Below are positions 40,978 to 58,808 of a DNA stretch of 64,000 nt, piece after piece. The position numbers and the translations under genes were made by a program. The first letter of the stretch is position 1; each line of letters opens with the position of its first letter. The stretch lies in NCBI GenBank assembly GCA_001295905.1, contig LJHT01000009.1, positions 1-64,000 on the forward strand, in the 5' to 3' direction. Under the pieces are notes generated by a model. The model worked only from the letters and a program-made list of their open reading frames with translations. It was not told the origin of the DNA and ran no database searches. The stretch is from a beta proteobacterium AAP51. GTDB taxonomy: Bacteria > Pseudomonadota > Gammaproteobacteria > Burkholderiales > Burkholderiaceae_C.

Positions 40978-41309
40978 CAAGGCTGAAGGCACGCCGCCGC
41001 GAGGGCCGGGCCGGGTGCGGCACGGGTGTGGAGGCAGGCCGGGGCACCCCGCGCACTTGCAGGCAAACCCCTAGGCCGCAGGCCTGCCTTTGTGCCGCGC
41101 CAGGGCCTGCCCGGGTGGGGTGAACCACGGGCATGTCCGCTTCGCGCATCGGCAGTGTGTGAACGAACATTTCCGGGCGACGAAATGGGTGGCGCCGAAC
41201 CGCGGTGAACACCTCCCCGACACGGACGCCGCGGCCTGACGCCGCGCCGGCGGGCGACCCTTCCACCACCGGCGGAACCCACCGCCGTGAATGCCTCGGA
41301 GACAACTTC

Positions 41310-44300
41310 ATGCGACACCCTGCCTGCGCTGCGCGCATCCTTCGGCCGCACCCCATCGCCCTGGCGGTGAGTGGCCTGCTCTTCACCGGTGCGGCCTTCG
41401 CCCAGACCGCTGCCCCGGCCGCGCCCGCCGCCGCTGCCAGCGCCCCGGCGCGCCCCGCCGCCCCAGCCGCTGCCGCGCGACCCGCGACCCAGACCGACGA
41501 CAAGCAGGTCATCATCGTTCAAGGCACGCGGGCTTCGATCGAAGACGCCATCTCGCGCAAGCGCCGCGGCGCCACCGTCAGCGACCACATCGTGGCCGAA
41601 GACGTGAACCAGTTCCCCGACAAGACCATCGGCGATGCCATGGCGCGCATCACCGGCGTGCAGCTGGGCCGCGATGGCGACTCTGGCGAAGGCAGCGGCG
41701 TGTCCATCCGCGGCATGGATGCCACATGGACGCGCGTTGAAGTCGACGGCATGACGCAGCTGGGTGCCAGCATCAACAACAGCAGCAACGCCGGCGACCT
41801 GCGCGAGATCTCGGCCGAGCTGGTGAAGTCCATCGAAGTGGTGAAGGGCACCTTGCCCAACATCCGCGAAGGTGGCATCGGCGGCAGCGTGCGCGTGGAA
41901 AAGCGCAAGCCCTTTGATTTCAAGGAGCGCTTCGTGCAGCTCTCGGCGGCGGCCCAGCACGTCACCAATATCGGCACCACCACGCCGCGCCTGGCCTTCA
42001 TTGCCACCGACAAGTTCCTCAACAACCGGCTGGGCGTGATGTTCAACATCACCTACGACGACGTTGATGTGCGCGGCGACGCCGCCACCAGCGGCGGCGG
42101 CGGTGCCGGGGCCGGGGCCAACTTCAACCTGCAACGCGACTGGAACTTCACCGACCCCAACCAGGCCAAGACCTTCGTGTCAGCCAACGCGCAGTCGGCG
42201 GCCGTCACGGCCAAAGCCGGTTGCGCCGCGCTGGTGTCGAGCAACACAGCCGCCATCACCACGGCCAACCTGATCGCCGACTGCAACCGCCAGTTCAACG
42301 ACTACGCGCCGACCGTGCCGCGTTTCAACATCCGCGAACGTGATGTGAAGCGCGTGTCGGCCGATCTCACGCTGCAGTTCAGGATCAACGACAAGCTCAG
42401 CACCTGGCTCACGCACCAGCCCAACCAGCAGAAGTTCAAGTTCCGCAACTTCGACTATGGCTTCACGCTGGTGGCCGATGACCTGGGCAGCGCCCTGGGC
42501 GCGATGTACAACCGCTTCGCGCCGGCCGCTGGCGGCCGCGCGCCGGTCTACAACACCGATGGTTCACAGCGCACGGTGGGCACCTGCGGCCCGGTGCCCA
42601 CGGCCACGACCAACATCCCGGTCACGCTGAACGCCGCCAACCTGGTCACCGGTCTCACGCTGGGTGACTGCAACTTCGTGCGCAACCTGGGCGGCAACAA
42701 CGTGCTGAGCAGCTCCACGCGCGAGCAGGACATCAACATCAAGTCCGAGTACAACCAGCTCGGCTGGGCTTACCGGGGCGACCTCTGGCGCATCGACGGC
42801 TTCATCGGCGCCTCGCGCCAGGGTTATGTGGAAAGCAATTTCGTCTCGGGCCTGGGCATCAACGCGCCAGGCCTGCAGCTGCAGCCCACCGCCCAGAACA
42901 TCTCGACCATCGTCCTGCCCGCCAATTTCGATTGGTACAACCCGAACAACTACTCCAGCGCCACGCTGAACTACGCCGCCAACCTGCAGCTGCGCAAGGA
43001 AAAGACGGGCCAGCTCGACTTCACGCGGGCACTGGACGTCGGCCCGCTCAACCGCCTGCTTTTCGGCGGCAGCCTCACCAACCAGAGCAGCGTGCGCTAC
43101 TCCAGCAACACCAGCTCGCAGTACGGCACCAACGTCACCACCCAGGGTTCCGAAGTCAACACCACGCTGATCTTCGACTCGCTCAACCCGTTCAACGTGG
43201 TGCCGGCTTCCACGCAGCTGTGGCGGCCCACGGGCGGCGCTGCAGGCGCAACGCCGAACCTGTTCGTCTCGCGCGTGAACATGGAGCGCAACATCACGCG
43301 CCCGCAGATGCAGCAGTACCTGCAGGCCGTGCTGCAGATGACGCCGGGCACCTTCATGGCCGACTCGGCGCTGGCCGGTTCGGTGCCGGCCTCTTGGATG
43401 GCCCCGAGCCGGGATGCCGCGCTGGCCAGCGGGCTGTTCGACGGCCCCAACACCACCGCCCTGATGAACACCGGCAGGCTCACACAGTCGCTGGGCAGTG
43501 ACGGCCGCACCTATCCGCAGCAGCCCACCTTCGACGTGAAGCAGCGCGTGGAGGCCGCCTACGTGCGCCTGGATTGGGACCTGCCCGAGTTCAAGGGCCT
43601 CGTGCTGGACGGCAACTTCGGCGTGCGCTACACGCGCACCACGGTCGATTCGGCCGGCTTCCTGCAGGTGCCCGGCGCCCCGGTGCCGGGTTCGACCGCC
43701 GTGCCCCCCCCGTTGCGTTCGCTGGTGGTCGTGAAGCACCAGTACAACGACGTGCTGCCTTCCTTCAACCTCGCGGCCAATGCCCTGGGCGGCAAGTTCA
43801 CCACCCGCCTCGGCTGGGGCAAGGTGCTGACGCGCCCCAACCTCGACAGCCTGCGCCCGAACATCGTCTGCACGGCCGACGACCCCACCAACCCGGCCAG
43901 CGACGGCATCGACAACTGCACGGGCGGCAGCCCGGTGCTCAAGCCCTTCCGCGGCACCAAGACCGACCTGAGCTTCGAGTTCTACCCGGTGCGGGGCTCG
44001 CAGATCAACCTGGCCTTCTACCAGGTGGACATCAAGGTCGACTCGCCCGGATCGGCGCGCCGCTTCCTGGGCGAGATCGACCTCGGTGACGGCATCCTGC
44101 GCTCGGTGACGGTGCCCACCAACAACGAGCCCGGCCCGACGACTAGCGGTGTCGAATTCGGTGTGCGTACGGCCTTCAACTACCTGCCGGGCTTCTGGCG
44201 CCACTTCGGCGCCGACTTCAACATCACGCGCAACCGTGCCAAGTACGCGCCGGGCGCCGAGCAATTCATCAACATCGCCGGCTCGTACAACGTGCTGGCG

Positions 44301-44621
44301 CCGCGTCCGGGCATGTCGGCCACCACCACGAACTACAGCCTCTGGTACGACAACGGCAAGCTCAGCGGCCGCGTGGCGGTGTCTGCGCGCGATGAGTTCT
44401 ACCGCGGCCTGGACCGTCGCAACTACCCCTGGTTCCAGATCAAGTCGACCTTCGTCGACGCCAAGGTCTCGTACAAGTTCACCGACAACCTGACGGTGGC
44501 CGTCGAGGGCAAGAACCTGGGCCGCCAGGAGAGCACGCAGTACATGCTGCGCACCGACCTGCCGCGCGACTACACCTGGAACGGCCGTCGCTTCTTCCTG
44601 ACGGGCACGTACAAGTTCTGA
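41310..44621 (+). CDS. TonB-dependent receptor, Caulobacter type
   Basis: The 1,103-residue outer-membrane protein likely imports pectin oligosaccharides. It has a signal peptide ending AAFAQ, a Pro/Ala-rich spacer (about 32-66), then the TonB box region KQVIIVQGTR and the plug (AISRKRRGATVSDHIVAEDV, FPDKTIGDAMARITGVQLGRD, VSIRGMD, VEVDGM). The remaining 850 residues are the beta-barrel, ending in the aromatic residue of GTYKF. Start ATG 41310 has GGAGA nine bases before it; an in-frame GTG at 41205 would not begin with a signal peptide. It is the first gene of the plus-strand operon, with PL11 only 7 nt behind. No SusD partner is present, as usual in proteobacteria. Confidence 0.93.
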   Translation: MRHPACAARILRPHPIALAVSGLLFTGAAFAQTAAPAAPAAAASAPARPAAPAAAARPATQTDDKQVIIVQGTRASIEDAISRKRRGATVSDHIVAEDVNQFPDKTIGDAMARITGVQLGRDGDSGEGSGVSIRGMDATWTRVEVDGMTQLGASINNSSNAGDLREISAELVKSIEVVKGTLPNIREGGIGGSVRVEKRKPFDFKERFVQLSAAAQHVTNIGTTTPRLAFIATDKFLNNRLGVMFNITYDDVDVRGDAATSGGGGAGAGANFNLQRDWNFTDPNQAKTFVSANAQSAAVTAKAGCAALVSSNTAAITTANLIADCNRQFNDYAPTVPRFNIRERDVKRVSADLTLQFRINDKLSTWLTHQPNQQKFKFRNFDYGFTLVADDLGSALGAMYNRFAPAAGGRAPVYNTDGSQRTVGTCGPVPTATTNIPVTLNAANLVTGLTLGDCNFVRNLGGNNVLSSSTREQDINIKSEYNQLGWAYRGDLWRIDGFIGASRQGYVESNFVSGLGINAPGLQLQPTAQNISTIVLPANFDWYNPNNYSSATLNYAANLQLRKEKTGQLDFTRALDVGPLNRLLFGGSLTNQSSVRYSSNTSSQYGTNVTTQGSEVNTTLIFDSLNPFNVVPASTQLWRPTGGAAGATPNLFVSRVNMERNITRPQMQQYLQAVLQMTPGTFMADSALAGSVPASWMAPSRDAALASGLFDGPNTTALMNTGRLTQSLGSDGRTYPQQPTFDVKQRVEAAYVRLDWDLPEFKGLVLDGNFGVRYTRTTVDSAGFLQVPGAPVPGSTAVPPPLRSLVVVKHQYNDVLPSFNLAANALGGKFTTRLGWGKVLTRPNLDSLRPNIVCTADDPTNPASDGIDNCTGGSPVLKPFRGTKTDLSFEFYPVRGSQINLAFYQVDIKVDSPGSARRFLGEIDLGDGILRSVTVPTNNEPGPTTSGVEFGVRTAFNYLPGFWRHFGADFNITRNRAKYAPGAEQFINIAGSYNVLAPRPGMSATTTNYSLWYDNGKLSGRVAVSARDEFYRGLDRRNYPWFQIKSTFVDAKVSYKFTDNLTVAVEGKNLGRQESTQYMLRTDLPRDYTWNGRRFFLTGTYKF

Positions 44622-44628: not shown

Positions 44629-46527
44629 ATGGCCCTGCGCGCTGCTCCGCACTTCCAGCGGCATCGGCATCCGCTGCTGGCGGCCGTGCTGGCCCTTGGG
44701 GCCTGCACGCTGCCGCAGCAAGAGCGGCAGGGTGCGTCGAGCACCGAGCTGCCCACCGCAGCCCTGGCGCCCGTGTTGGAGAAGCTGGGTCGCGGCGCCG
44801 TGGCCGTGCCTTCTGCCGCAGGCGCGCTGGTGAGCTGGCGCCTGCTGGCCACCGACCCCGCCGGCCTGCAGTTCAAGCTGTACCGCGACGGCCAGGCGCT
44901 GACGCCGCAGCCCCAGGCGCTGACGCAGTTCCTTGATGCGGCCGGCCAGCCCGGCAGCCGCTACGAACTGCGCACCGTGCAGGGGGGTGCCGAAACTCTG
45001 GCCGCCCGCACCGAGGCTTGGGCGGCGCCTTTCCGCACCGTGCCGCTGCGCAAGCCGGCTGGCGGTGTCACGCCCGACGGCGTGGCCTACACCTACGCCG
45101 TGAACGACGGCTCGGCCGCCGATCTGGACGGCGACGGCGATTACGAACTCGTCATCAAGTGGCAGCCCACGAACGCGAAAGACAACTCGCAGCGCGGCCA
45201 CACCGGCAACACCTACATCGACGCCTACAAGCTCGACGGCCGCTTCCTGTGGCGCGTGGACCTCGGCCGCAACATCCGCGCCGGGGCCCACTACACCAGC
45301 TTCCTGGTGTTTGATTTCGATGGCGACGGCCGCGCCGAGCTGATGGCCAAGACGGCTGACGGCACCGTCGATGGCCAGGGCCAGACCCTGGGCGACGCCA
45401 GCGCCGACCACCGCAATGCGGGCGGCTATGTGCTGGCCGGCCCGGAGTGGCTGACGGTCTTCAGTGGCCAGACCGGCGCGGCCCTGGCCAGCACCGACTA
45501 CCTGCCTGGCCGCGGCGACGTTGGCGCCTGGGGCGACACCTACGGCAACCGCGTCGACCGCTTCCTGGCCGGCGTGGCCTACCTCGACGGCCGCCTGCCC
45601 AGCGCCGTGTTCGCGCGGGGCTACTACACCCGGGCCGCCCTGGTGGCCTGGGACTGGCGTGACGGCCGCCTGAGCCGGCGCTGGGTGTTCGACACCGACG
45701 TGGCCGATGCCGAGGTGCGCGGCCAGGGCGCGCACTGGTTCTCGGTGGCCGATGTCGATGGCGATGGCCGGCAAGACATCGTCTACGGCGCCGCCACCAT
45801 CGGCAGCGAAGGCCGCATGCGCTACAGCACCGGCCTGTGCCACGGCGATGCGCTGCACGTGGGCCGGCACGACCCCAGCCAGCCCGGGCAGCAGGTCTTC
45901 ATGGTGCACGAGAGCCCGCGCTGTTATGGCGAGCACGGCGTGCAGGTGCACGACGCCGCCACCGGCCGCCTGCTCTGGAGCCACGACGGCGGCCGGCAGG
46001 ACGTGGGCCGCGGCGTGTGCATGGACATCGACGCCGCGCACTGGGGCAACGAATGCTGGGCCTCGGTGGGCGGCCTGTACAACGCGCAGGGCCAGCTCAT
46101 CAGCCGTGAACGCCCGCGCAAGGTGAACTTCGGCCTGTGGTGGGATGGCGACCTGCTGCGGGAATCGCTGGACGGCGTGGCCATCGAGAAGTGGAACTCC
46201 GCCACCGCGCAGCTGGAGCCGCTGCTCTCGGGCGCGCCGCACCAGGCGCAATCGAACAACGGCACCAAGGCCACGCCGGTGCTGTCGGCCGACCTCTTCG
46301 GCGACTGGCGCGAAGAAGTCGTCTGGCGCCGCGCCGACAACGAAGCCTTGCTCGTCTTCAGCACCGCCCTGCCCACCGCGCACCGCCAAGTGACGCTGAT
46401 GCACGACCTGCAGTACCGCGTGCAGGTGGCCGCGCAGAACGCGGGCTACAACCAGCCGCCGCACCCCTCTTTCTTTCTGGGTGCCGCAAGACCGGCACCT
46501 TCGGTTTCCTCTGCTTCAAGACCGTGA
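44629..46527 (+). CDS. Rhamnogalacturonan lyase, PL11 family
   Basis: The 632-residue protein cuts the rhamnosyl-(1,4)-galacturonosyl bond of RG-I by beta-elimination. The signal peptide ends in a lipobox-like LALGAC, so it is probably a surface or periplasmic lipoprotein. The N-terminal beta domain (about 35-140) precedes the eight-bladed propeller with Ca2+-binding Asp motifs: DLDGDGDYELVIKWQP, FDFDGDGRAELMAKTADG and DVDGDGRQDIVYG. Other PL11 blocks are RGHTGNTYIDAY and YGEHGVQVHD. Size and motifs fit YesW/YesX-type enzymes. The stop overlaps the start of the next gene by one base (TGATG), so translation is coupled. Confidence 0.95.
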   Translation: MALRAAPHFQRHRHPLLAAVLALGACTLPQQERQGASSTELPTAALAPVLEKLGRGAVAVPSAAGALVSWRLLATDPAGLQFKLYRDGQALTPQPQALTQFLDAAGQPGSRYELRTVQGGAETLAARTEAWAAPFRTVPLRKPAGGVTPDGVAYTYAVNDGSAADLDGDGDYELVIKWQPTNAKDNSQRGHTGNTYIDAYKLDGRFLWRVDLGRNIRAGAHYTSFLVFDFDGDGRAELMAKTADGTVDGQGQTLGDASADHRNAGGYVLAGPEWLTVFSGQTGAALASTDYLPGRGDVGAWGDTYGNRVDRFLAGVAYLDGRLPSAVFARGYYTRAALVAWDWRDGRLSRRWVFDTDVADAEVRGQGAHWFSVADVDGDGRQDIVYGAATIGSEGRMRYSTGLCHGDALHVGRHDPSQPGQQVFMVHESPRCYGEHGVQVHDAATGRLLWSHDGGRQDVGRGVCMDIDAAHWGNECWASVGGLYNAQGQLISRERPRKVNFGLWWDGDLLRESLDGVAIEKWNSATAQLEPLLSGAPHQAQSNNGTKATPVLSADLFGDWREEVVWRRADNEALLVFSTALPTAHRQVTLMHDLQYRVQVAAQNAGYNQPPHPSFFLGAARPAPSVSSASRP

Positions 46528-49500
46528 TGTACAAACCCTCCAGCCGCCTCTGGCGCCGCGTGTTCAGCGCCTCCGTCATCTCCCAGATCGGCCTCTTCGG
46601 CATCGCGCTGGGCCTGGTGCTCACGCTGGCCGCGGTGACGGTGCTGGCGCAAGACCTGCCCGGCCAGACCAGCGCCCACGGCGCACTGGTGGCGGCCCCG
46701 GCGCCCGTGCAGGCGGTGCCGCGCGTGGCCGGCCCGGCGCCGGGCAAGACCTTTCTCATCTCGGCCTTCAACGCCACCTCGCAAGGCCAGCTGAGCCTCT
46801 TCACCTCGAAGGACGGCAGCACCTACACCTCGCTGCATTCCGAGGTCTGGCAGCCGCCCAAGGGCTTGCTGCGCGACCCCAGCATCATCCGCACGGCCGA
46901 TGGCTGCTGGGCCATCGTCTACACCACCGACTGGAACAGCAGCACCTTCGGCGTGGCGCGCGCGTGCAGGCTGAACCAGTGGCAGCACGTGGCCGACGTG
47001 CCCGTGGCCTTGCCGGGCAGCGAGAAGGTGACCAACGTCTGGGCACCCGAGTGGTTCCGCGATGAAGACGGCAGCCTGAGCGTGGTGGTCTCGCTGTCCA
47101 CGAAAGGCACGGGCGGCCCCTTCGCGGCCTGGCGCCTGCAGCCCACCCGGCCCGACTTCACGGCCTTCGGCGCGCCGCAGCTGCTGCGCGGCCTGGAAAC
47201 GCGCAACCCCATCGACACCTTCATCGTGCGCGAGGGTGGGCGCTATGTCGCCTTCACGAAGAACGAAAGCACGAAGTTCATCGAGCGCGCCACGGCCACC
47301 AGCCTGGATGGCCCGTGGACCTACGACCGCACCGGCGACTGGGCCGGCTTCGGCGGCCCGCTGGAAGGCCAGGCGCTGGTGCGCATCGTCGACAGCAAGG
47401 GCCAGCCCGGCTGGCGCCTGCATGCCGACAGCTACGTCGACAAGCGCTACTACTTCAGCGACAGCTTCGACGGCCTGAACACCTGGACACCGCGGCGCGA
47501 GATCATCGGCGCCTCGGGCTCGGCGCGGCACTTCACGGTGCTTGCCGAAGACAGCGCGCACCTGGCCCAGGTCACCGCGCCCACCGGCACGCCGCGCAAG
47601 ATCACCTGGGACCAGTACTCGCTGATGATCGACGGCGAGCGCAAGATGATCTGGGCCGCCGAGTTCCAGGTCTTCCGCCTGCCCAGCCCCAGCCTGTGGC
47701 GCGACGTGCTGCAGAAGTACAAGGCCATCGGTCTGAACGGCATCTCGCTGTACTTCAACTGGGGCTACCACTCGCCCCACCCCGGCCATTACGACTTCAC
47801 CGGCGTGCGCAACCTCGAGCGCGCACTGCAGATCGCCAAGGAAGAAGGCCTGTACGTGATGGTGCGCAACGGCCCTTACGTGAACGCCGAACTCAGCATG
47901 GGCGGCTACCCGGGCTGGGTGACGCGCCAGCGCGCCGAGGCGCGCACCGACGCGGCCGAGTACCAGAACGCCACCGCCGAATGGCTGACGCAGGTGAACG
48001 CCATCATCTCGCGCTTCCAGATCACCAACGGCGGCGGCACCGTCATTGCGTACCAGCTGGAAAACGAGCAGTTCTCGGTGCAGCCCAAGAACGCCCGCCA
48101 CATGCAGTTCCTGGCGGACAAGGCGCGCGCCGACGGCATCACCGTGCCCCTCTTCCACAACGCCGCTTCGCGACTGCCCGACTGGACACCGCGCAACAGC
48201 ACCGCGCCCTTTGCCAACCCCGGCCCCACCGACCTGTATGCCTTCGACGGCTACCCCGGTGGCGTGTGCGACGTGCACGGCCAGCCCGGCATTCCCTCGG
48301 TGGCGCCCGACTGGGGCATCTACGGCAAGAACATCCCGCGCGTGGGCTCGCTGGCTTCGCCGCACACGCCGGGCTTCGGCGCGGAAATCGGTGCCGGCTG
48401 GTTCGACTACTGGGGCAGCAACGGCACCTACCCCTGCACGGCCTTGCGCCAGGGCACGGGCTACCAGCGCGTGTTCTACGGCAGCAACCTCATCAACCGC
48501 ATCGTCATCCACAGCATCTACATGGGGTTCGGCGGCACCACCTGGGGCTGGCAGGCCGCGCCGGTGGTCTTCACCAGCTACGACTACGGCGCGCCCATCG
48601 ATGAAGCGCGCGGCCTGCGGCCCAAGGCCTACGGCCTGAAGGCCCTCGGCCGCTTCATCCAGGCCGCCGAGCCGGTGCTGGCGCAGATGGACATCGGCCC
48701 GGCCGTGACGCCGAGCAACCCGCGCATCAGGCTCTATCACAACGTCAACCCGACGCTGAAGAGCCACGTGTTCTTCGCCGTGCACAACCCGAGCTCGAAC
48801 ACCGGGCGTGAGAGCTTCAGTTTCGAGATCGACATCGCCGACGGCCGCTACCGCGTGCCCCAGGCCGGCACGCTGCAGATCAACGGGCAGGACGCCAAGT
48901 TCATGCTGGCCGGCGTGGAGCTGCAGCGCCAGCGCCTGGTCTACAGCACCTCGGAACTCTGGGCCCACACCCGCCACGGCACGCACGACCTGCTGCTGCT
49001 GCACGGCCGCAGCGCCGAAGACGGCGAAACCGTGCTGCGCTACAGCAGCCGCCCGCGCGTGCGCGTGCTGGCCGGCCAGGTGCAGCAGACCTGGGACGCC
49101 GCGCGCGGCGACCTGCGCCTGAACTACAGCCACCAGGGCCTGATCGAGCTGGAGATCGACGGCGGCGGCCGCGCACCGCTGCGCCTGCTGCTGGCCGACG
49201 AGCCCACCATCGCGCAGTTCTGGCAGCTGCAGGCCGGCGCCGACACCGTGCTGGTGCAAAGCACGGCCTTGCCGCGCCACGCGCGCCTGGAGGGCGCGCC
49301 TTCACCAACTTCAAGCCGCGATGGCACCACCCTGGCCCTGCAAGGCGACACCGAAGCCGACAGCGCCTTGCGCGTGTGGGCCGGTCCCGAGGTGAAGGCC
49401 CTGCGCTGGAACGGCCGCGCGCTGCCCACCGTGGCCGCCGCCAACGCCAGCCTGGCCGCCCGCACGCCGCTGCCCGGCCCGCTGCAGGCCGGCCGCGACT

Positions 49501-50570
49501 TCACGCTGCCCGACCTGGGCAGCCTGCCCTGGCTGCGCCGCACCGACAGCGCCGAAGCCGCCCCCGGTTTCGACGACAGCCGCTGGCGCGTGGCCGACGC
49601 GCCCAGCTCGGCCGCCCAGGTGTGGAGCGCCAGCGAGCGCGGCGCCCCCGTGCTGGCCATGAGCGACTACGCCTTCCACCGCGGCGACATCTGGTACCGC
49701 GGCCGCTTCAAGACCACCGCCGAGACCACGCCGGCGGGCACGCCGCTGGACCTGCAGCTCTATTACGGCGGCGGCGGTGCCGGCCTCATCCAGGTGTGGC
49801 TGAACGGCCAGTTCCTGGGCCAGCATGAACTCGACACCGGCCGCCCCTTCCCCGAAACCACCGACACCTTCCGCCTGCAGCTGCCCGCGCTGCCGCCGGG
49901 TGAACACGTGCTGGCGGTGAAGGTGCGCAACAACGGCCACAACTGGAACCTGTTCTCTGACGAAGCGCACAAGGAAGCGCGCGGCCTGATCGCGGCCTCG
50001 CTGGCCCCGCGTGCCGGCCGCCGCCACAGCCTGCCCATCAGCTGGCGCCTGCGCGGCGCACCCGAGGCCATTGCCGACCTCGCACGCGGGCCCTACAACA
50101 ACGGCGGCCTGGCGGGCGAAGCGCGCGGCTGGCACCTGCCCAGCGCGCCCGACCGCGACCTGCGCACCGGCTGGGACAGCGTCAGCCCCCAGGCTGCGCC
50201 GCCCGCGCCCGGCCCCTACTGGCTGCGCACCAACTTCACGCTGAACCTGCCTGAAGACCACGACGTGCAGCTGGGCCTGGCTTTCGGCGACACCAGCGTG
50301 CCGCGTTCGCCCACGGCGCAGTACCGCGTGCTGATCTTCGTGAACGGCTGGAACATGGGCCAGTTCATCGCCCACGTGGGGCCGCAGCGTGTGTTCGTGC
50401 TGCCGCCGGGCATCGTCAACCCGCGGGGTGAAAACACGCTGGCCCTGGTGGTCAGCAGCGACGGGCAGGCCGCCAACGCCCTGGAAAGCGTGAAGCTGGT
50501 GCCGCTGCGCAGCGCCCGCGGCGGCGTGCCGCTGACGGTGCTGCCGCCTTCGCGCTACCTGCAGCGGTGA
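46527..50570 (+). CDS. GH43-like/GH35 fusion glycosidase
   Basis: The 1,347-residue protein begins with a hydrophobic export/anchor segment (about residues 15-41). Residues of about 65-345 look like a GH43-type five-bladed propeller: LLRDPSII with Asp117, NPIDTF with Asp230 and PLEGQA with Glu280 are candidates for the catalytic triad (arabinanase/galactanase-type activity). Residues of about 365-700 are a GH35 beta-galactosidase barrel: NGISLYFNWGYHSP, YVMVRNGPYVNAE, acid/base Glu514 in YQLENEQF and nucleophile Glu620 in FGAEIGAGWFDYWG. Beta-sandwich modules with a GH2/GH35-type jelly roll (IWYRGRF, IQVWLNGQFLGQHE) fill the C-terminus. It probably strips galactan/arabinogalactan side chains of RG-I. 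The GH43 assignment is by motif; the GH35 one is firm. Confidence 0.85.
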   Translation: MYKPSSRLWRRVFSASVISQIGLFGIALGLVLTLAAVTVLAQDLPGQTSAHGALVAAPAPVQAVPRVAGPAPGKTFLISAFNATSQGQLSLFTSKDGSTYTSLHSEVWQPPKGLLRDPSIIRTADGCWAIVYTTDWNSSTFGVARACRLNQWQHVADVPVALPGSEKVTNVWAPEWFRDEDGSLSVVVSLSTKGTGGPFAAWRLQPTRPDFTAFGAPQLLRGLETRNPIDTFIVREGGRYVAFTKNESTKFIERATATSLDGPWTYDRTGDWAGFGGPLEGQALVRIVDSKGQPGWRLHADSYVDKRYYFSDSFDGLNTWTPRREIIGASGSARHFTVLAEDSAHLAQVTAPTGTPRKITWDQYSLMIDGERKMIWAAEFQVFRLPSPSLWRDVLQKYKAIGLNGISLYFNWGYHSPHPGHYDFTGVRNLERALQIAKEEGLYVMVRNGPYVNAELSMGGYPGWVTRQRAEARTDAAEYQNATAEWLTQVNAIISRFQITNGGGTVIAYQLENEQFSVQPKNARHMQFLADKARADGITVPLFHNAASRLPDWTPRNSTAPFANPGPTDLYAFDGYPGGVCDVHGQPGIPSVAPDWGIYGKNIPRVGSLASPHTPGFGAEIGAGWFDYWGSNGTYPCTALRQGTGYQRVFYGSNLINRIVIHSIYMGFGGTTWGWQAAPVVFTSYDYGAPIDEARGLRPKAYGLKALGRFIQAAEPVLAQMDIGPAVTPSNPRIRLYHNVNPTLKSHVFFAVHNPSSNTGRESFSFEIDIADGRYRVPQAGTLQINGQDAKFMLAGVELQRQRLVYSTSELWAHTRHGTHDLLLLHGRSAEDGETVLRYSSRPRVRVLAGQVQQTWDAARGDLRLNYSHQGLIELEIDGGGRAPLRLLLADEPTIAQFWQLQAGADTVLVQSTALPRHARLEGAPSPTSSRDGTTLALQGDTEADSALRVWAGPEVKALRWNGRALPTVAAANASLAARTPLPGPLQAGRDFTLPDLGSLPWLRRTDSAEAAPGFDDSRWRVADAPSSAAQVWSASERGAPVLAMSDYAFHRGDIWYRGRFKTTAETTPAGTPLDLQLYYGGGGAGLIQVWLNGQFLGQHELDTGRPFPETTDTFRLQLPALPPGEHVLAVKVRNNGHNWNLFSDEAHKEARGLIAASLAPRAGRRHSLPISWRLRGAPEAIADLARGPYNNGGLAGEARGWHLPSAPDRDLRTGWDSVSPQAAPPAPGPYWLRTNFTLNLPEDHDVQLGLAFGDTSVPRSPTAQYRVLIFVNGWNMGQFIAHVGPQRVFVLPPGIVNPRGENTLALVVSSDGQAANALESVKLVPLRSARGGVPLTVLPPSRYLQR

Positions 50571-50575
50571 GCGGC

Positions 50576-53092
50576 ATGCGCGCGGCACAACGGCCTTCCT
50601 TCCTGCCAGCCCTGGCCGCCTTCGGCCTGTGGGCAGCGCTGGTCAGCGCCGGGGCTGTGGCGGCGCCTGCAGCGGCTGTGCCCGCTGCTGCAGCTGCCCC
50701 ATCGTTCACCGGGCGCAGCGTGCAGCTGCTGGCCGAGGGTTGGCGCTTCCACAAGGGCGACCCCAGCACCGCCATGCAGCCGGCCCATGACGACAGCGCC
50801 TGGCGCGCCGTGCGTGTGCCGCACGACTGGAGCATGGACGAGCCCTTCCGCGCCGAATACGGCAGCGGCAACGGCTACGCGGCCGGCGGCGTGGGCTGGT
50901 ACCGCCACCGCTTCAGCCTGCCCGCGGCGCAGCAGGGCCGGCGCGTGCGTGTCGATTTCGACGGCGTCTACAGCCACGCGCAGGTGTGGATCAACGGCCA
51001 CCTGCTGGGCGGCCGGGCCAACGGCTACATCAGCTACGGCTTCGAGCTCACGCCTTACCTGTTCACCGACCGGCCCAACGTGCTGGCCGTGCGTGTGGAC
51101 CGCACCCGCCAGACCGATTCACGCTGGTTCACCGGCTCGGGCATCTACCGCGATGTGCGGCTGACCTATTCCGATCCCGTCCACATCGCCCCCTGGGGCG
51201 TGTTCGTGCAGACACCGCGCATCACGGCGGCGCAGGCCCAGGTGCAGGTCCAGGCCACCGTCCACAACAGCAGCGCCGCGCCGCAGGCCTACACGCTGCG
51301 CACCGAGCTGCTCGCTCCCGATGGCCGTGCCGTGCTGGCCCAGGCCGAACGCCAGGGGCGCCTGGCTGCAGGCGAGCACCTCTCGGTGCAGCAGACGCTG
51401 CAGCTCGCGAACCCGCAGCGCTGGGGTCCGGCAACGCCCGTGCTGTACACGCTGCGCAGCCGCGTGCTGCGGGCGGGCCGCGAAGCGGATGTCGTGGACA
51501 CGCCCTTCGGCGTGCGCGATTTCCGTTTCACGCCCGACCGCGGCTTCTTCCTCAACGGCCAGCCGCTGAAACTGCGCGGCGTGGCCCTGCACCACGACGC
51601 GGGCAGCCTGGGCGCTGCCGTGCCGGTTTCGCTGCTGGCGCAGCGCCTGCAGGCCTTGCAGGCCCTGGGCGTGAACGCCATCCGCACCAGCCACAACCCG
51701 ATGGCGCCCGAGTTCCTGCAACTCACCGACCGCCTGGGCCTCTTGGTGCAGGTGGAGGCTTTCGACGAGTTCACACCGGCCAAGAACAAGTGGGTGGAAG
51801 GCTGGAACGTGGGCCTGCCCAGCCGCCACGGCTACGCCGAAGACTTCCTGCGCGACAGCGTGCGCGACATCGAAGACCTGGTGCGCCGCGACCGCAACCA
51901 CGCCAGCGTGGTGATGTGGAGCATCGGCAACGAGGTCGACTACCCCAACGACCCTTTCTCGCACCCCGTGCTGGGAGCGCGCTACCGCCCGCAGAACCCG
52001 CCGGCCAGCGAGCTGACGCGTCTGGCGCGCCCGCTGGTGCAGGCCGTCAAGCGCCTGGACCCCACGCGGCCCGTGACGGCGGCGCTGGCCTCGCTGGAGA
52101 TGAGCGAAGCCGTGGGCCTGCCCGAACTGCTGGACGTGGTGGGCTACAACTACCAGGAACAGCGCTACGCGGCCGACCGTGCCCGCCACCCGCAGCGCGT
52201 GATCTACGGCAGCGAGAACCGGCACGACTACCGCGCCTGGGCCGTGGTGCGCGACCTGCCCTACATCAGCGCCCAATTCCTGTGGACCGGCCATGACTAC
52301 CTCGGCGAAGCCGGCCGTTTCCCGCTGCGCGCGGCCGACTTCGGCCTCTTCGACCTGGCCGGCTACCTGAAGCCGCGCGGCGCCTTCCGCGAGAGCCTGT
52401 GGAGCGCGCAGCCCGTGGTGCAGCTGGCAGCAGCGCCGGCCGACGCCGCCACCCATGCCTCTACCTCGGGGCAGGGCACGCCGCTGCTCGACCAGCAGCG
52501 CCGCGCCCGCGTGCAGCAGCACTGGAACTGGCCTGCCGGCAGCACCATCAACGTGGCGGCCTATGCCAACACCGAGGCCGTGCAGCTGTGGCTGAACGGC
52601 CGCCTGCTGGCCACACAAACGGCCGCCCAGGCCGTGGAAGGCGTGCTGAGCTTCACCGTGCCCTTCGAGGCCGGCGAGCTGCGCGCCGTGGGCTTGAAGG
52701 CCGGGCAGCCGGTGGCCAGCACCGTGCTGCGCACGGCCGGCCCGGCGGCACGCATCGAACTGCGCCCGCGCACGGTGGCCCCTGTGCCCGGCCTGCCGCT
52801 GCAGGACGGCGTGGTGCAGGTGGAATACACCGTCACCGACGCCCAGGGCGTGCGCGTGCCCGATGCCGAACAGCGCCTGCATTTCGAACTGCAGGGCGCG
52901 GTGGAAATACTGGGCATCGGCAACGGCCATCTCGGCGACATTGACGACCCGCGCGACGCCCACCACGCCGCCCACCAGGGCCGCGGCCTCGCGGTGTTGC
53001 GCCGCACCGGCGCCGTCGGCAGCCCGGCGGTCGAACCGGCCCGCCTGCGCGTCAGCGCGCCGGGCCTGGTGGCGGCCGAACTGCCGCTTTGA
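50576..53092 (+). CDS. Glycoside hydrolase family 2, probable beta-galactosidase
   Basis: The 838-residue protein has an Ala-rich signal peptide (about 1-41). It shows the GH2 order: jelly-roll sugar-binding domain (VGWYRHRF, VWINGHLLGG), Ig-like domain, TIM barrel (GVALHHDAG, GVNAIRTSHNPMAPE, MWSIGNEVD with acid/base Glu453, YGSEN with nucleophile Glu547), then further beta domains (VAAYANTEAVQLWLNG). This is the beta-galactosidase-like branch used on plant side chains. ATG 50576 lies 5 nt behind the previous stop; GTG 50567, overlapping that stop, is also possible. It should remove galactosyl or related residues from RG-I fragments in the periplasm. Confidence 0.93.
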   Translation: MRAAQRPSFLPALAAFGLWAALVSAGAVAAPAAAVPAAAAAPSFTGRSVQLLAEGWRFHKGDPSTAMQPAHDDSAWRAVRVPHDWSMDEPFRAEYGSGNGYAAGGVGWYRHRFSLPAAQQGRRVRVDFDGVYSHAQVWINGHLLGGRANGYISYGFELTPYLFTDRPNVLAVRVDRTRQTDSRWFTGSGIYRDVRLTYSDPVHIAPWGVFVQTPRITAAQAQVQVQATVHNSSAAPQAYTLRTELLAPDGRAVLAQAERQGRLAAGEHLSVQQTLQLANPQRWGPATPVLYTLRSRVLRAGREADVVDTPFGVRDFRFTPDRGFFLNGQPLKLRGVALHHDAGSLGAAVPVSLLAQRLQALQALGVNAIRTSHNPMAPEFLQLTDRLGLLVQVEAFDEFTPAKNKWVEGWNVGLPSRHGYAEDFLRDSVRDIEDLVRRDRNHASVVMWSIGNEVDYPNDPFSHPVLGARYRPQNPPASELTRLARPLVQAVKRLDPTRPVTAALASLEMSEAVGLPELLDVVGYNYQEQRYAADRARHPQRVIYGSENRHDYRAWAVVRDLPYISAQFLWTGHDYLGEAGRFPLRAADFGLFDLAGYLKPRGAFRESLWSAQPVVQLAAAPADAATHASTSGQGTPLLDQQRRARVQQHWNWPAGSTINVAAYANTEAVQLWLNGRLLATQTAAQAVEGVLSFTVPFEAGELRAVGLKAGQPVASTVLRTAGPAARIELRPRTVAPVPGLPLQDGVVQVEYTVTDAQGVRVPDAEQRLHFELQGAVEILGIGNGHLGDIDDPRDAHHAAHQGRGLAVLRRTGAVGSPAVEPARLRVSAPGLVAAELPL

Positions 53093-53117
53093 ACCTTTTT
53101 CTGCAGGTCCTCCAGCC

Positions 53118-54281
53118 ATGAACAACCAGGTTCTCATTCCCACCCACCCTGAACGCATCCACCCGCTGCTGGGCCACCACGTCGCCGGCCTGGGTGCCGA
53201 CCGCGCCGACTGGCAGGACACCATCCGCCGCGTCATCCACAACCTCGTCAACATAAAGGACGTGGACGGCAGCTTCCTGCTGAAGCTGGAGGACGGCCGC
53301 GTCATCGACACCAAGAGCTGGCACGGCTTCGAATGGACGCAGGGCATCGGCCTCTATGGCCTGTGGAAAGTGTGGCAGATGACGGGCGACGAAGCCGCCT
53401 GGAAGACCATGACGCAGTGGTTCGCCGACCGCTTCGCCGAAGGCTCGCCCTCGCGCAACATCAACACGGTGGCGCCGTTCCTGACGCTGGCCAACCTGTA
53501 CGAGCGCACCGGCACGCCCAGCTACCAGCCCTACCTGGACGTGTGGGCCGAGTGGGTGTTCAGGCAGATGCCGCGCACCGAGGAAGGCGGGCTGCAGCAC
53601 ATCGTCTACAACAGCGTGAACCACCAGCAGCTCTGGGACGACACGCTGATGATGAGCGTGCTGCCGCTGGCGCGCATCGGCCAGGTGCTCAAGCGCCCGC
53701 ACTACATCGAAGAAGCCAAGCGCCAGTTCATGGTGCACGTGAAGTACCTGGCCGACCCCGCCACCGGCCTGTGGTTCCACGGCTGGACCTTCGACGGCCG
53801 CCACCACTTTGCCAAGGCCCGCTGGGCGCGCGGCAACTCGTGGGTGACCATCGCCATCCCCGAATTCATCGAGATGCTGGCGCTGCCCGAGGGCGACGCC
53901 CTGCGGATGTTCCTCACCGAAACGCTGTCGGCGCAGGTGAAGGCGCTGGCGCCGCTGCAAACCGAAAGCGGCATGTTCCGCACGCTGCTGGACGACCCCA
54001 GCTCCTATGAAGAAGCTGCAGCCACGGCCGGCTTCGCCTACGGCATCTTGAAGGGCGTGCGCCTGGGCCTGCTGCCGGCCGAATTCGAGACCGTGGGCCG
54101 CCGTGCCGCGCTGGCCGTGCGCCGGCACATCAACGACGCAGGTGAACTCACGCAGGTGTCCTTCGGCACGCCGGTGTTCAACACGCTGCAGGAATACAAG
54201 GACATCCCGCTCACCAGCATGCCCTTCGGGCAGAGCATGGCGCTGCTGGCCCTCGTCGAATTCAACTACCGCTTCCTGTGA
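53118..54281 (+). CDS. GH105 unsaturated rhamnogalacturonyl hydrolase, cytoplasmic
   Basis: The 387-residue protein is close to YteR in length and layout. It is a single (alpha/alpha)6 barrel that hydrates unsaturated galacturonyl-rhamnose, giving rhamnose and a 5-keto-uronate. Motifs: SWHGFEWTQGIGLYG, INTVAPFLTLANLYE, LWDDTLMM with the probable catalytic Asp175, WFHGWTF and ARWARGNSWV. There is no signal peptide, so it acts in the cytoplasm after import, unlike the exported GH105-DUF4861 protein of the other operon. The symporter gene starts 2 nt downstream, in keeping with import followed by hydrolysis. Confidence 0.95.
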   Translation: MNNQVLIPTHPERIHPLLGHHVAGLGADRADWQDTIRRVIHNLVNIKDVDGSFLLKLEDGRVIDTKSWHGFEWTQGIGLYGLWKVWQMTGDEAAWKTMTQWFADRFAEGSPSRNINTVAPFLTLANLYERTGTPSYQPYLDVWAEWVFRQMPRTEEGGLQHIVYNSVNHQQLWDDTLMMSVLPLARIGQVLKRPHYIEEAKRQFMVHVKYLADPATGLWFHGWTFDGRHHFAKARWARGNSWVTIAIPEFIEMLALPEGDALRMFLTETLSAQVKALAPLQTESGMFRTLLDDPSSYEEAAATAGFAYGILKGVRLGLLPAEFETVGRRAALAVRRHINDAGELTQVSFGTPVFNTLQEYKDIPLTSMPFGQSMALLALVEFNYRFL

Positions 54282-54283
54282 CC

Positions 54284-55861
54284 ATGGGCGCCACTTCCCT
54301 GACCACCGCCCCCATGCGCCAGCCCACCTGGCGCAACTACTGGGGCTGGGGCTCCGGCGACATGCTGGGCGCCGGCGCGCAGGCCGTCATCACCGGCTGG
54401 CTGTTCTACTTCTTCGTCACCTTCTGCGGCCTCAGCGCCGTCGAGGCCGGGCTCATCCTGGGCCTGCCGCGGCTCATCGAAGCCATCAGCTGCCCGCTCA
54501 TCGGCTACATGTCCGACAACCTGCGCAACAGCCGCATCGGCCGGCGCATCGGGCGGCGCCGCATCTTCCTCATTGCGGTGCTGCCGCTTCTGCCCAGCTT
54601 CGCGCTGCTGTTCGTGACGGGGCAGACCTTCTGGTACTACCTGGCGGTCTTCATCTTCTTCGAGCTGCTCTACACGGCCTTCCTCATTCCCTGGGAAACC
54701 ATGGCCGCCGAGATGAGCAAGGACTACGCCGAGAAAGCCAAGTTCGCCGGTGCGCGCATGCTGGTGGCCCAGGGCTCGGCCATCCTGGCCAGCTTCCTGC
54801 CCACGCTGCTGATCGCGCAGTTCGGCGGCAAGGACACGGCCGAACCCTTTTTCTGGATGGCGGTGATCTTCGGCATCCTGTTCAGCCTGGTGGTGCTGAT
54901 CGTGCTGCTGTCTTCTTGGGAGCGGCCCTATACCGAAGAAGAGCTGCGCCAACCGGTGGCCACCTTGAGCTGGGCCGAAGCGGCGCAGATCCCGTTCAAG
55001 ATGTTCCGCGACCTGTTCTCCACGCTGCGCATCCGGGCCTTCCGCCAGCACCTGTCCATCTACCTGGGCGGCTACCTGTCGCAGGACATCTTCAACACCG
55101 CCTTCCCCATCTTCGTGGCCACGGTGCTGCTGGGTTCGATGGGGGCCACGCTGGCCATCAGCCAGCTGATGACGGTGATGTACATCGCGCAGTTCTTCAG
55201 CGTGATGATCGCCATCCGCGTGGTCATCAAGGTCGGGCCGGTGTTCGCCTACAAGGCGGCCATCACCTTGTTCATCACGGCCACGCTGCTGTACGGCTGG
55301 CTCTACCTGCAGCAGCGTGCTGTGGGGGCCGAGGCGCCTTCGCCGCTGTGGCTGTTCGGGCCCATCATCCTGGCCGGCCTGGGCCGCGGCACGCTGAACT
55401 TCGTGCCCTGGTCGGTCTACAACTATTTGCCTGATGTGGACGAGGCCGTCACCGGCCTGCGCCGCGAAGGCATCTTCGCCGGCGTGATGACCATGGTGCG
55501 CAAGGTCGCGCAAAGCGTGGCCATCGTCGCCACGGGCTGGCTCATCGGCCTGGGCGGTTACGTCTCGCCCAAGAGCGTGGCCGGCGGCGTGGTCACGCAG
55601 AGCGAGACCGCGGTGATGACGGTGACGCTGGTGATGGTGGTCGGCCCCATCCTGATGATGCTGCTGGGCCTGTGGGCGGCCTACAACTTCAACCTCACCG
55701 CCAAGACGCACCGCGTTCTGGTCGATGAAGTCGAGCGCTTGCGCGCGGGCGAAACCGAGCCTTCCAGCCCGGAAGCCCAGCGCATCGTCGAAGACCTGAC
55801 CGGCTGGCGCTACGAGACCCTGTGGGGCCGTGGCGACAAGAACCGCAAGCCGGCGGCCTGA
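54284..55861 (+). CDS. Sugar symporter, GPH/MelB-type MFS
   Basis: The 525-residue inner-membrane protein has about 12 hydrophobic helices. The first helix with GSGDMLGAGAQAVITGWLFYFF, the loop GLPRLIEAISCPLIGYMSD and the basic IGRRIGRRR loop are typical of the glycoside-pentoside-hexuronide:cation symporters. In similar loci such carriers import uronide-rhamnose disaccharides made by RG lyases. The start is 2 nt behind GH105, so expression is coupled. The last 60 residues form a polar cytoplasmic tail. The exact substrate is inferred from neighbours. Confidence 0.9.
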   Translation: MGATSLTTAPMRQPTWRNYWGWGSGDMLGAGAQAVITGWLFYFFVTFCGLSAVEAGLILGLPRLIEAISCPLIGYMSDNLRNSRIGRRIGRRRIFLIAVLPLLPSFALLFVTGQTFWYYLAVFIFFELLYTAFLIPWETMAAEMSKDYAEKAKFAGARMLVAQGSAILASFLPTLLIAQFGGKDTAEPFFWMAVIFGILFSLVVLIVLLSSWERPYTEEELRQPVATLSWAEAAQIPFKMFRDLFSTLRIRAFRQHLSIYLGGYLSQDIFNTAFPIFVATVLLGSMGATLAISQLMTVMYIAQFFSVMIAIRVVIKVGPVFAYKAAITLFITATLLYGWLYLQQRAVGAEAPSPLWLFGPIILAGLGRGTLNFVPWSVYNYLPDVDEAVTGLRREGIFAGVMTMVRKVAQSVAIVATGWLIGLGGYVSPKSVAGGVVTQSETAVMTVTLVMVVGPILMMLLGLWAAYNFNLTAKTHRVLVDEVERLRAGETEPSSPEAQRIVEDLTGWRYETLWGRGDKNRKPAA

Positions 55862-55959: not shown

Positions 55960-58803
55960 ATGAGTGAACACAGCCCGCGCCTGAACCGGCGCCAGTTCGT
56001 CGGCGGCGGTGCCGTGCTGGGCGTGGCCTCGGCCAGCGGCCACGCGTTGGCTGCCGGCCCGGCCGCAGCGGCTTCAACCGTCGCTGCCGGCCCCACGCCC
56101 GGCGCCGGCAGCAGCGCGCCCGCCCGCCCGCAGGCGCTGCGCTGGCTGGATGGCCAGGCGCCCGCGCTGCATGCCGGCGTCACCTGGGGCCTGCCCTGGG
56201 CGCGAGGGCAGTGCCCGCGCGGCACCGCCTTCGTGCTGCGCGACCCGCAGGGCCAGCCGCAGCCGCTGCAGACCTGGCCGCTGGCCTGGTGGCCCGACGG
56301 CTCGCTGAAGTGGACGGGCCACGCCATCGCGCCCGGGGTGTCGGTGGGTGATGGATCAGGTGCCTCAGGCGCCGGCTGGCAAGTGCAGCCGCTGCCTGCG
56401 GGCCAGGCCGCGCCCTCCACGCCCAGCGTGGTGGTGACGGTGGAAGAAGGCGCCGAGGCCGTGACGGTGAACACCGGCACGGTGGTGTGCGTGGTGCCGC
56501 GCCGCGGGCCGGTGCTGGTGCGCAGCGTCACGCGCAGGGGCGTGGAGGTGATGCGCCAGGTGCAGCTGGTGGCGCAGAGCAGCGCCGACGCCAGCGGCAG
56601 CGGCGAGCTCACTGCCTTCGAAGGTGTGGTGGAGCAGCTCCACATCGAACAGCGCGGCCCGCAGCGCGCGGTGCTGCGCCTGCGCGGGCAGCACCGTGTG
56701 GCGCAGCCTGGCACCGCCGGGCCGCAGGCTCCGCGCGCCTGGCTGCCTTTCGACCTGCGCCTCTACTTCTACGCCGGCGGCGACGCGCTGCGCGTGATGC
56801 ACAGCTGGGTGTTCGACGGTGAACCGCAGCGCGACTTCATCCGCGGCCTGGGCCTGCGTTTCGACGTGCCGCTGCGCGACGCCCCGCACGACCGGCATGT
56901 GCGCTTTGCCGCTGAAGGCGAGGGCCCGAACGGCCAGGCCGCCTACGGCTTGTGGGCCGAAGCCGTGCGCGGCCTCACCGGCCTGCGCCGCGACCCCGGT
57001 GCCGCGGTGCGTGCCGCGCAGCTGGCCGGCCAGCGCTGCCCGCCGCCCGAGACCTGGCAGCACGCCTCGGTGCGGCGTTTCCTCGAACGCATTCCGGCCT
57101 GGGGCGATGTGAGCCTGTCGCAGCTGGGCCCCGACAGCTTCCAGATCAAGAAGCGCACGCGGGCCGGCCACACCTGGGTGCACAGCGCCTGGGGCGGCCG
57201 TGCCGCCGGCCTGGGCTATGTGGGCGACACGCAAGGCGGCGTGGCCTTCGGCCTGCGTGACTTCTGGCAACGCCACCCGGCGCAGCTGGACATCCGCAAC
57301 GCGCACACCGCCAGCGCGCAGGTGAGCTGCTGGTTCTGGGCGCCCGAGGCGCCCGCGATGGACCTGCGGCCCTACCACGATGGCCTGGGGCAAGACACTT
57401 TCGAGAAGCAGCTCGAAGGCCTGGAAGTCACCTACGAAGACTGGGAGCCCGGCTTCGACACCGCCGTGGGCGTGGGCCGCAGCCACGAGCTGACGCTGTT
57501 CGCCCTGCCCGCCACGCCCTCGCGCGAACGGCTGGTGCAGCTGGCGGGCCTGGTGCAGACGCCGCCGCTGCTGGTGGCCGCGCCGCAGCGCTACCTGGAC
57601 ACGCGCGTCTTCGGCACGCTGTGGACGCTGCCCGACCGCAGCACGCCGCAGAAGGCGGCCCTCGAAGACCGGCTCGATTTCGTCGTCAAGTTCTACCAGG
57701 ACCAGGCCGAACAGCGCCGCTGGACCGGCTTCTGGGACTACGGCGACGTGCACCACACCTTCGACGCCGACCGCCACGAGTGGCGCTACGACGTCGGCGG
57801 CTACGCCTGGGCCAACAGCGAGCTGTCGCCCGACCTCTGGCTGTGGAGCATGTTCTTGCGCAGCGGGCGTGCCGACATCTTCCGCTTCGCCGAAGCCATG
57901 GTGCGCCACACCACCGAGGTGGACACCTACCACCTCGGCCGCTTCAAGGGCCTGGGCACGCGGCACGGCGTGCTGCACTGGAGCGACAGCGCCAAGCAGT
58001 TGCGCATCAGCACCGGCGCCTACCGGCGCCAGTACTTCTACCTCACGGCCGACGAGCGCATCGGCGACGTGCTGGACATGCTGACCACGGCCGACCGCCA
58101 GCTCATCGCGCTGAACCCCACGCGCAAGATCAAGGACGCGCCCAAGCTGCCACCCGGCCAGGCCGTGATGGGCGTGGGCACCGACTGGGGCTCGATGCTG
58201 GCCAACTGGCTGACGGCCTGGGAACGCAGCGGCGACGCGCGCTGGCGCGATCGCATCGCGCGCGGCATGGCCTCGGTGGCGGCGATGCCGCGCGGCTTCT
58301 TCAGTGCGTCGGGCGCCGGCTACGACCCTGAGACCGGCGCGCTCAGCAACCTCATTGGCGAGCGCGCCAGCGCCAGCCACCTGAGCGCCGTCTTCGGCCT
58401 CGTGGAAATGCTGGCCGAGCTGGCCGAGCTGATCGAGGTGCCGGGCTTCGAAAAGGCCTGGCTGCAGTACTGCCGCCTCTACAACGCGCCGGTGGAAGAG
58501 CAGCGGCGTGAACTCGGCATGCCGCACGGCGGCACCAACGCGCTGACGGTGGGGCACTCGCGCCTGACCGCCTACGCCGCGATGCGCCTGAACGACCCCG
58601 CGCTGGCGCGCCGCGCCTGGGCCGAGATGCTGGGCGACCGGCGCTTCGGCAACCGCCCGCTGGCCACCACGCGCATCGAAGGCCCGGCCGTGCTGCGCCC
58701 GGTGGACGTGGCGCCCTGGGTCAGCACCAACGACGCCGCGCAGTGGAGCCTGGCGGCGATGCAGAACCTGGCCTGGGTGGGCGCGCACCTGCCGAAGGAC
58801 TGA
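55960..58803 (+). CDS. Exo-rhamnogalacturonan lyase family protein, PL26 (PcRGLX/YetA-like)
   Basis: The 947-residue protein begins with a twin-arginine signal (NRRQFVGGGAVLG). Three parts of the PcRGLX/YetA family can be followed: an N-terminal RIFT-barrel-type beta domain (about 60-330, WPLAWWPDGSLKWTG), a second beta domain (about 350-560, GFGLRDFWQRHP, CWFWAPEAPAMDLRPYHD), and an (alpha/alpha)-barrel C-terminal region (about 580-940, WTGFWDYGDVHHTFD, DVGGYAWANSE, HLGRFKGLGTRHGVLHW). PL26 enzymes release unsaturated disaccharides from RG-I chain ends. With PL11 and PL4 it gives the locus a third lyase type. It is 98 nt behind the symporter gene. Family by motif, activity inferred. Confidence 0.87.
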   Translation: MSEHSPRLNRRQFVGGGAVLGVASASGHALAAGPAAAASTVAAGPTPGAGSSAPARPQALRWLDGQAPALHAGVTWGLPWARGQCPRGTAFVLRDPQGQPQPLQTWPLAWWPDGSLKWTGHAIAPGVSVGDGSGASGAGWQVQPLPAGQAAPSTPSVVVTVEEGAEAVTVNTGTVVCVVPRRGPVLVRSVTRRGVEVMRQVQLVAQSSADASGSGELTAFEGVVEQLHIEQRGPQRAVLRLRGQHRVAQPGTAGPQAPRAWLPFDLRLYFYAGGDALRVMHSWVFDGEPQRDFIRGLGLRFDVPLRDAPHDRHVRFAAEGEGPNGQAAYGLWAEAVRGLTGLRRDPGAAVRAAQLAGQRCPPPETWQHASVRRFLERIPAWGDVSLSQLGPDSFQIKKRTRAGHTWVHSAWGGRAAGLGYVGDTQGGVAFGLRDFWQRHPAQLDIRNAHTASAQVSCWFWAPEAPAMDLRPYHDGLGQDTFEKQLEGLEVTYEDWEPGFDTAVGVGRSHELTLFALPATPSRERLVQLAGLVQTPPLLVAAPQRYLDTRVFGTLWTLPDRSTPQKAALEDRLDFVVKFYQDQAEQRRWTGFWDYGDVHHTFDADRHEWRYDVGGYAWANSELSPDLWLWSMFLRSGRADIFRFAEAMVRHTTEVDTYHLGRFKGLGTRHGVLHWSDSAKQLRISTGAYRRQYFYLTADERIGDVLDMLTTADRQLIALNPTRKIKDAPKLPPGQAVMGVGTDWGSMLANWLTAWERSGDARWRDRIARGMASVAAMPRGFFSASGAGYDPETGALSNLIGERASASHLSAVFGLVEMLAELAELIEVPGFEKAWLQYCRLYNAPVEEQRRELGMPHGGTNALTVGHSRLTAYAAMRLNDPALARRAWAEMLGDRRFGNRPLATTRIEGPAVLRPVDVAPWVSTNDAAQWSLAAMQNLAWVGAHLPKD

Positions 58804-58808
58804 GGGCG

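Follow-up and report, generated by a model that had tools for sequence, protein, structure and literature searches.

The enzymes closest to the protein described here belong to glycoside hydrolase (GH) families 35, 43, and 159. In LacA, a GH35 beta-galactosidase of Aspergillus niger, we take residues 200 and 298 to be the catalytic pair. For HoAraf, an alpha-L-arabinofuranosidase of subfamily GH43_33 from Halothermothrix orenii, a published account names D17, D126, and E195 as catalytic residues and describes GH159 enzymes as cleaving galactofuranosides and arabinofuranosides alike (PMC9278983). In a 64,000-nucleotide stretch of DNA from beta proteobacterium AAP51 (contig LJHT01000009.1, positions 1 to 64,000; hereafter, the window), a single gene on the forward strand (46527-50570) encodes a likely signal peptide, a GH43-type propeller, and a LacA-type GH35 beta-galactosidase, as judged from the sequence, Pfam, and alignment to structures in the PDB. 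A search of the open-access literature, a scope that leaves most subscription papers and CAZy outside, found no account of a fusion between GH43 and GH35, and we class it as a new architecture built from two families already known. This agrees with the initial annotation of the DNA, which was made from the letters alone and did not recognize the combination as a described one. We consider it likely that the protein is an exported, two-domain trimmer of rhamnogalacturonan I (RG-I) side chains, with the propeller removing arabinose and the GH35 half then removing galactose; that it is exported, that it acts on these sugars, and that it acts in this order are inferred.

Two catalytic domains in one chain

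The fusion gene is one open frame of 1347 amino acids (aa) with an ATG start. Its first base overlaps the stop of the upstream gene (TGATG, 46525-46529) and its last four overlap the downstream gene (GTGA, 50567-50570), as in an operon. GTDB species genomes were searched with the full-length query, and the best 80 of 247 relatives were kept, a choice that favours fused proteins. The front part could be assessed in 77 of these loci, the other three (L023, L065, and L079) being cut by contig ends, and the fusion is present in 72 of the 77, spread over many species of Burkholderiales, Caulobacterales, and Azospirillaceae.

The front part, at about aa 74-345 (46746-47561), is a clan GH-F beta-propeller, most probably of family GH43, because its relatives match PF04616, its predicted fold matches those of known enzymes, and its putative catalytic residues align with those of HoAraf. 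Profile similarity is clearest across the group: all 46 rows of an alignment of the window protein and 45 relatives match PF04616 (E <= 0.01, best 1.4e-17), and the cut-off is exceeded by L094 (42.7 bits) and L021 (39.4 bits). That alignment holds 46 of 73 rows, having left out 22 with lost catalytic residues and five others (L061, L063, L064, L069, and L070) that each lie near a kept row, so that its invariance is partly by choice; two further alignments comprise 17 hand-picked rows and 41 of the 73 rows, respectively. An AlphaFold2 model of the propeller (predicted local distance difference test score, pLDDT, 93; predicted template modelling score, pTM, 0.89) was compared with known structures using VIA-align. 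The GH159 enzyme 7zei (Z 22.1, root-mean-square deviation 2.6, 228 aligned residues) and the GH43_33 enzyme 4qqs (Z 21.8, deviation 2.8, 238 aligned residues) headed the matches, and behind them came numerous GH43 enzymes with Z scores of 20-21.6; the GH43 matches, at Z 20-22, span 227-242 aligned residues. A profile of 17 diverse rows searched against the PDB also recovered both, 4qqs at 2.5e-8 and 7zei at 2.6e-6.

Alignment to 4qqs places D117, D230, and E280 of the window protein on residues 17, 126, and 195 of HoAraf. The putative catalytic base, D117 (46875-46877), stands in the motif LLRDPSI and is Asp in 70/72 fused relatives; the putative third catalytic Asp, D230 (47214-47216), stands in NPIDTF and is Asp in 68/72; and the putative general acid, E280 (47364-47366), stands in LEGQA and is Glu in 50/72. 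H335 (47529-47531), a putative metal ligand that is His in 51/72 relatives, was recognized by its distance of 55 residues from E280, as against 54 for E190-H244 of the GH159 enzyme Ch_Gaf159A. The two Asp, the Glu, and the His are jointly intact in 50 of the 72.

Residues 358-1347 read as a complete LacA-type GH35 beta-galactosidase. When these C-terminal 990 residues were compared with the PDB using phmmer, LacA (5IFP) matched over query positions 2-977 (E 3.8e-120). The catalytic barrel (aa 365-708, 47619-48650) matches PF01301 at E 9.1e-73, with 246 bits against a cut-off of 27, and is followed by BetaGal_dom2 (aa 726-894, 48702-49208; PF10435, E 4e-22), BetaGal_dom3 (aa 906-975, 49242-49451; PF13363, E 8.2e-8), and BetaGal_ABD2 (aa 1198-1314, 50118-50468, the best of two stretches; PF13364, E 1.4e-39), all of them above their own cut-offs. 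The putative acid/base E514 (48066-48068), in the motif ENE, aligns with E200 of LacA, and the putative nucleophile E620 (48384-48386), in GAEIG, with E298; both are present in 72/72 relatives. A model of the two domains together (residues 70-980; pLDDT 80.7, pTM 0.84) falls below a pLDDT of 50 in parts of the GH35 barrel and is too uneven for the two active sites to be placed relative to one another.

Pfam, the relatives, the fold, and the residue alignments thus agree with the initial annotation in placing GH43-type and GH35 domains, with both residue sets, in one chain, and D117, D230, E280, E514, and E620 all lie where it had put them. It had also stated that a propeller devoid of GH43 profile similarity, or catalytically empty, would speak against it; the similarity was found through the relatives, and the residues are present in the window protein, although 22/72 fused relatives have lost theirs.

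The same annotation saw a membrane or export segment at the N-terminus, and of these the export signal is the likelier. The hydrophobic stretch ends ...VTVLA and is followed by QDLPGQ, giving a likely signal peptide at aa 1-41 (46527-46649) with likely cleavage between A41 and Q42. Read by eye, the majority of the Burkholderiales and Asticcacaulis relatives show the same A-Q-[D/E]-L junction, and export is favoured for that reason; a permanent membrane anchor is less likely, since the stretch closes at a recurring, cleavage-like junction. A twin-arginine signal, for which the window protein offers RRVF, was dropped since relatives such as L003 are without this motif.

Gene neighbourhood and likely substrate

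The fusion gene sits in what appears to be a locus for RG-I utilization, where rhamnogalacturonan lyases of three kinds and an unsaturated uronyl hydrolase adjoin it, all on the forward strand. Immediately upstream lies a family 11 rhamnogalacturonan lyase (44629-46527; PF21348, E 3.1e-225), the gene with the one-base overlap. Downstream are a GH88/GH105-type unsaturated uronyl hydrolase (52863-54281; PF07470, E 6.7e-94), whose domain begins at residue 131 and whose true start is probably downstream of the called one; a sugar transporter of the major facilitator superfamily (MFS) type (54278-55861; PF13347); a PcRGLX-type exo-rhamnogalacturonan lyase (55960-58803; PF21346, PF21345, and PF19501), presumably of polysaccharide lyase family PL26; and a PL4 rhamnogalacturonan lyase (61407-63248; PF09284, PF14683, and PF14686). 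Within flanks of up to 8 kb, shorter at contig ends, homologues of the GH88/GH105-type and MFS genes were found near 47/50 intact loci, 0/22 loci with lost propeller residues, and 1/5 propeller-less loci. A GH53 gene accompanies all five Azospirillaceae-type loci, and the unfused GH35 genes of sphingomonads adjoin genes for rhamnogalacturonan acetylesterase, L-rhamnose mutarotase, and GH88. Taken together, the lyases, the GH88/GH105 and MFS neighbours, the GH53 genes, and the sphingomonad contexts point to RG-I with arabinose-capped galactan side chains as the most likely substrate. The removal of arabinose and then galactose, as first proposed, is a fair reading, whereas the polymer named at the time, arabinogalactan in general, gives way to RG-I side chains on the strength of the gene context. 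The accompanying idea that intermediates stay bound drew no support from the analysis.

The preference for arabinose is suggested by the propeller's own relatives. In Nonomuraea, a propeller 45% identical to that of the window is followed by an AbfB domain, and in Rufibacter and Bacteroides, related propellers stand alone and adjoin pectin-type genes, the Bacteroidota relatives being annotated as GH43. The propeller would remove terminal alpha-L-arabinofuranose by inversion, with D117 as base, E280 as acid, D230 as helper, and H335 probably at a metal site. Galactose would thereby be uncovered, and the GH35 half would take it from the non-reducing end by retention, using E514 as acid/base and E620 as nucleophile. 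The bare backbone pieces would then pass to the rhamnogalacturonan lyases, the unsaturated uronyl hydrolase, and the MFS carrier of the same cluster.

Several observations weigh against this proposal. On its own, the window sequence stays below the PF04616 cut-off of 32.2 bits, scoring 17.1 as a whole protein (residues 113-189) and 22.4 as the domain alone. Its best structural match is to GH159, a family of beta-galactofuranosidases and arabinofuranosidases, 7zei being tied with GH43. At aa 296-303 (47412-47435), where most relatives have WRIYFDDY, the stretch is WRLHADSY in the window protein and in the two relatives nearest to it, with the loss of two aromatic residues. A GH53 gene was not found in the window's genome. 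The fusion is patchy, occurring in only 2/59 other genomes of the window's genus. Finally, the propeller is dispensable: 5/77 loci (L074, L076-L078, and L080) lack it, and its catalytic residues have been lost in 22/72 fused relatives, the reading frame still being open.

A propeller active on something other than arabinose, in which case the fusion would not be an arabinose-then-galactose enzyme, is the alternative that survives best, although we regard it as unlikely. The candidates are beta-xylose, beta-D-galactofuranose, as in GH159, and exo-beta-1,3-galactan, on which certain GH43 enzymes act. The tie between 7zei and 4qqs, the dual action reported for GH159 (PMC9278983), the exo-beta-1,3-galactanases that appear among the structural matches at Z 20.1-20.8, and the two altered aromatic residues all fit such a propeller, and the WRLHADSY motif suggests that specificity in the window clade may differ from that of its relatives. 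Against these stand the AbfB domain of the Nonomuraea relative, the RG-I gene context, and a profile match that is better to 4qqs than to 7zei.

The first forward-strand gene of the presumed RG-I locus encodes a TonB-dependent receptor (41205-44621; Plug, PF07715), and the gene with the four-base overlap encodes a GH2 beta-galactosidase-like protein (50567-53092; Pfam GH2 domains) that is GalA/GalB-like and below the NCBIfam cut-offs. Between the PcRGLX-type and PL4 lyases, 58743-61355 on the forward strand encodes an 870-aa protein that combines a GDSL acylhydrolase-like part (224-406) with a beta-lactamase-like serine hydrolase part (492-853); its homologues (at least 40% coverage) occur near 28/80 related loci. 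At 63265-63951 on the forward strand follows a protein of 229 aa that ends in a PEP-CTERM motif. Just beyond the window, at 63970-64962 of the contig, a separate GH43 gene (118.8 bits) lies beside a GH28 gene, and the pectin locus continues. The opposite strand encodes a DUF2264 protein (32524-35896), which adjoins a GH88-DUF4861 protein within the pectin locus, and also a set of kinase, isomerase-like, and aldolase-dehydrogenase genes, none of whose matched families is named for rhamnose. We take this set to serve L-rhamnose catabolism, which would likewise fit RG-I as the substrate.

Distribution, origin, and decay of the propeller

All 22 loci with lost propeller residues belong to Oxalobacteraceae, where they make up 22 of 25 fused loci (L020, L021, and L073 being the three intact ones), and none was found among the 47 fused loci elsewhere. 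Despite these losses, the GH35 pair is invariant. Over 24 rows from Oxalobacteraceae (including L020 and L021 and excluding L073), mean identity is 46% in the propeller and 87% in the GH35 barrel, and the ratio of propeller to barrel divergence is 4.0, as against 1.7-2.3 in five other groups. Ratios of nonsynonymous to synonymous substitution (Ka/Ks) were computed with our own NG86 script for 21 hand-picked pairs. Six close pairs with lost residues give propeller values of 0.28-0.58 and barrel values of 0.05-0.11; for 15 intact pairs, the propeller gives 0.05-0.34, which touches the lost-residue range. The Oxalobacteraceae propeller is under relaxed yet remaining constraint, and in the window clade both halves are constrained (0.34 for the propeller and 0.19 for GH35 between the window and L001). 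An end point is seen in L074, within the Oxalobacteraceae group, where a signal peptide and AQELGIPQASD are followed by a short linker and then GH35, the propeller being gone.

The losses give some weight to a second alternative, in which the GH35 half works alone and the propeller, idle as a catalyst, serves for binding or as a spacer. The faster divergence of the propeller, which holds in 6/6 groups, would also fit such a role. However, Asp, Asp, Glu, and His are intact in the window clade and in all 47 fused loci outside Oxalobacteraceae, and the intact pairs have a propeller Ka/Ks of 0.05-0.34; for the window protein we consider idleness improbable. An accidental fusion or assembly artefact is scarcely credible, and the lone oddity is ruled out, given the recurrence of the same fusion in 72/77 assessable loci from many species and the single open frame throughout. 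The two fused genomes of the window's own genus (G007 and G039) were not counted as extra support, since they probably correspond to the records L002 and L001.

A GH35 tree was built by a quick method from 42 of the 73 fused rows and 11 unfused ones, and rooted on three Actinomycete rows, one outgroup row being long. In it, the fused group forms one clade of 43 rows with an SH-aLRT of 95, of which 27 are intact, 15 have lost residues, and one is without the propeller; seven unfused sphingomonad rows fall outside, and it is simplest to assume that the fusion was gained once in Pseudomonadota. In Streptomyces and Nonomuraea, the LacA-type GH35 matches listed start at query residue 338-359 and lack the propeller; in L102, the open frame upstream of the GH35 match gave no Pfam match. 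As a separate observation, the N-terminus of a GH28-annotated protein of Bacteroides finegoldii (L096:4929-7193) is a related GH43 propeller, so that this kind of domain also occurs fused to a different pectin hydrolase.

The number of losses varies with the tree: the intact or lost label needs three changes on one tree and four on the rooted GH35 tree, the starred branches forcing two and three, respectively; the two trees conflict in that Asticcacaulis is nested in Oxalobacteraceae or vice versa. Homologues of the GH88/GH105 and MFS genes accompany 0/25 fused Oxalobacteraceae loci, and the three intact loci there are the only intact ones without them. Because even these three lack the neighbours, the pattern suggests that the neighbourhood was lost before the catalytic residues. 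Another gene of family GH43, separate from the fusion (L029:4533-5570 and homologues), was found near 7/22 loci with lost residues, 0/50 intact loci, and 0/5 unfused loci, counting homologues of a single query in flanks of up to 8 kb. It scores 229.6 bits against PF04616 and resembles the arabinofuranosidases 9nxj and 3akf. It was considered as a stand-in for the lost activity, but the seven loci form one group of close relatives and may reflect one event.

A possible history, which we put forward tentatively, is that a single-chain, two-step RG-I debrancher arose once in Pseudomonadota, when a propeller was set before a GH35 enzyme already present in rhamnogalacturonan loci; that the first active site was lost in Oxalobacteraceae, probably repeatedly, after the gene had left its GH88/GH105 and MFS neighbours; and that the propeller was removed altogether in one lineage. 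If true, this would be a natural series from a two-enzyme chain to an idle domain to a single enzyme. The decay in Oxalobacteraceae also shows how a catalytic domain can fade where it stands, with the enzyme that follows it still under constraint. If both halves are active, the protein would be a compact means of trimming the side chains of pectin. It would also allow a clean test of what a fusion gains over two separate enzymes, as its intact, decayed, and unfused relatives share the GH35 half.

Comparison with known systems

Each half of the window protein has a counterpart among known enzymes. LacA of A. niger (5IFP/5IFT) resembles the GH35 half over nearly all of its 990 C-terminal residues, but the alignment begins at residue 46 of the LacA chain, which leaves no space for a propeller ahead of it, unlike in the fusion. 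HoAraf (4QQS) shares the propeller fold and the triad, yet it is only 11% identical to the window propeller and is a stand-alone chain of 315 residues. Likewise, Ch_Gaf159A (7ZEI), the best structural match, has a similar spacing of Glu and His but is 18% identical, stand-alone, and a weaker profile match than 4qqs. Joined propellers are seen in two other proteins. In Nonomuraea gerenzanensis, the GH43 protein L094, with its 45% identical propeller and a PF04616 score above the cut-off, is joined to AbfB rather than to GH35, and the LacA-type GH35 match of that organism lies far off in the record. Finally, the GH43-GH28 protein of B. finegoldii (L096, WP_306561231.1) also sets a related propeller, 27% identical, at the N-terminus of a pectin hydrolase, although its second half is GH28 where the window protein has GH35.

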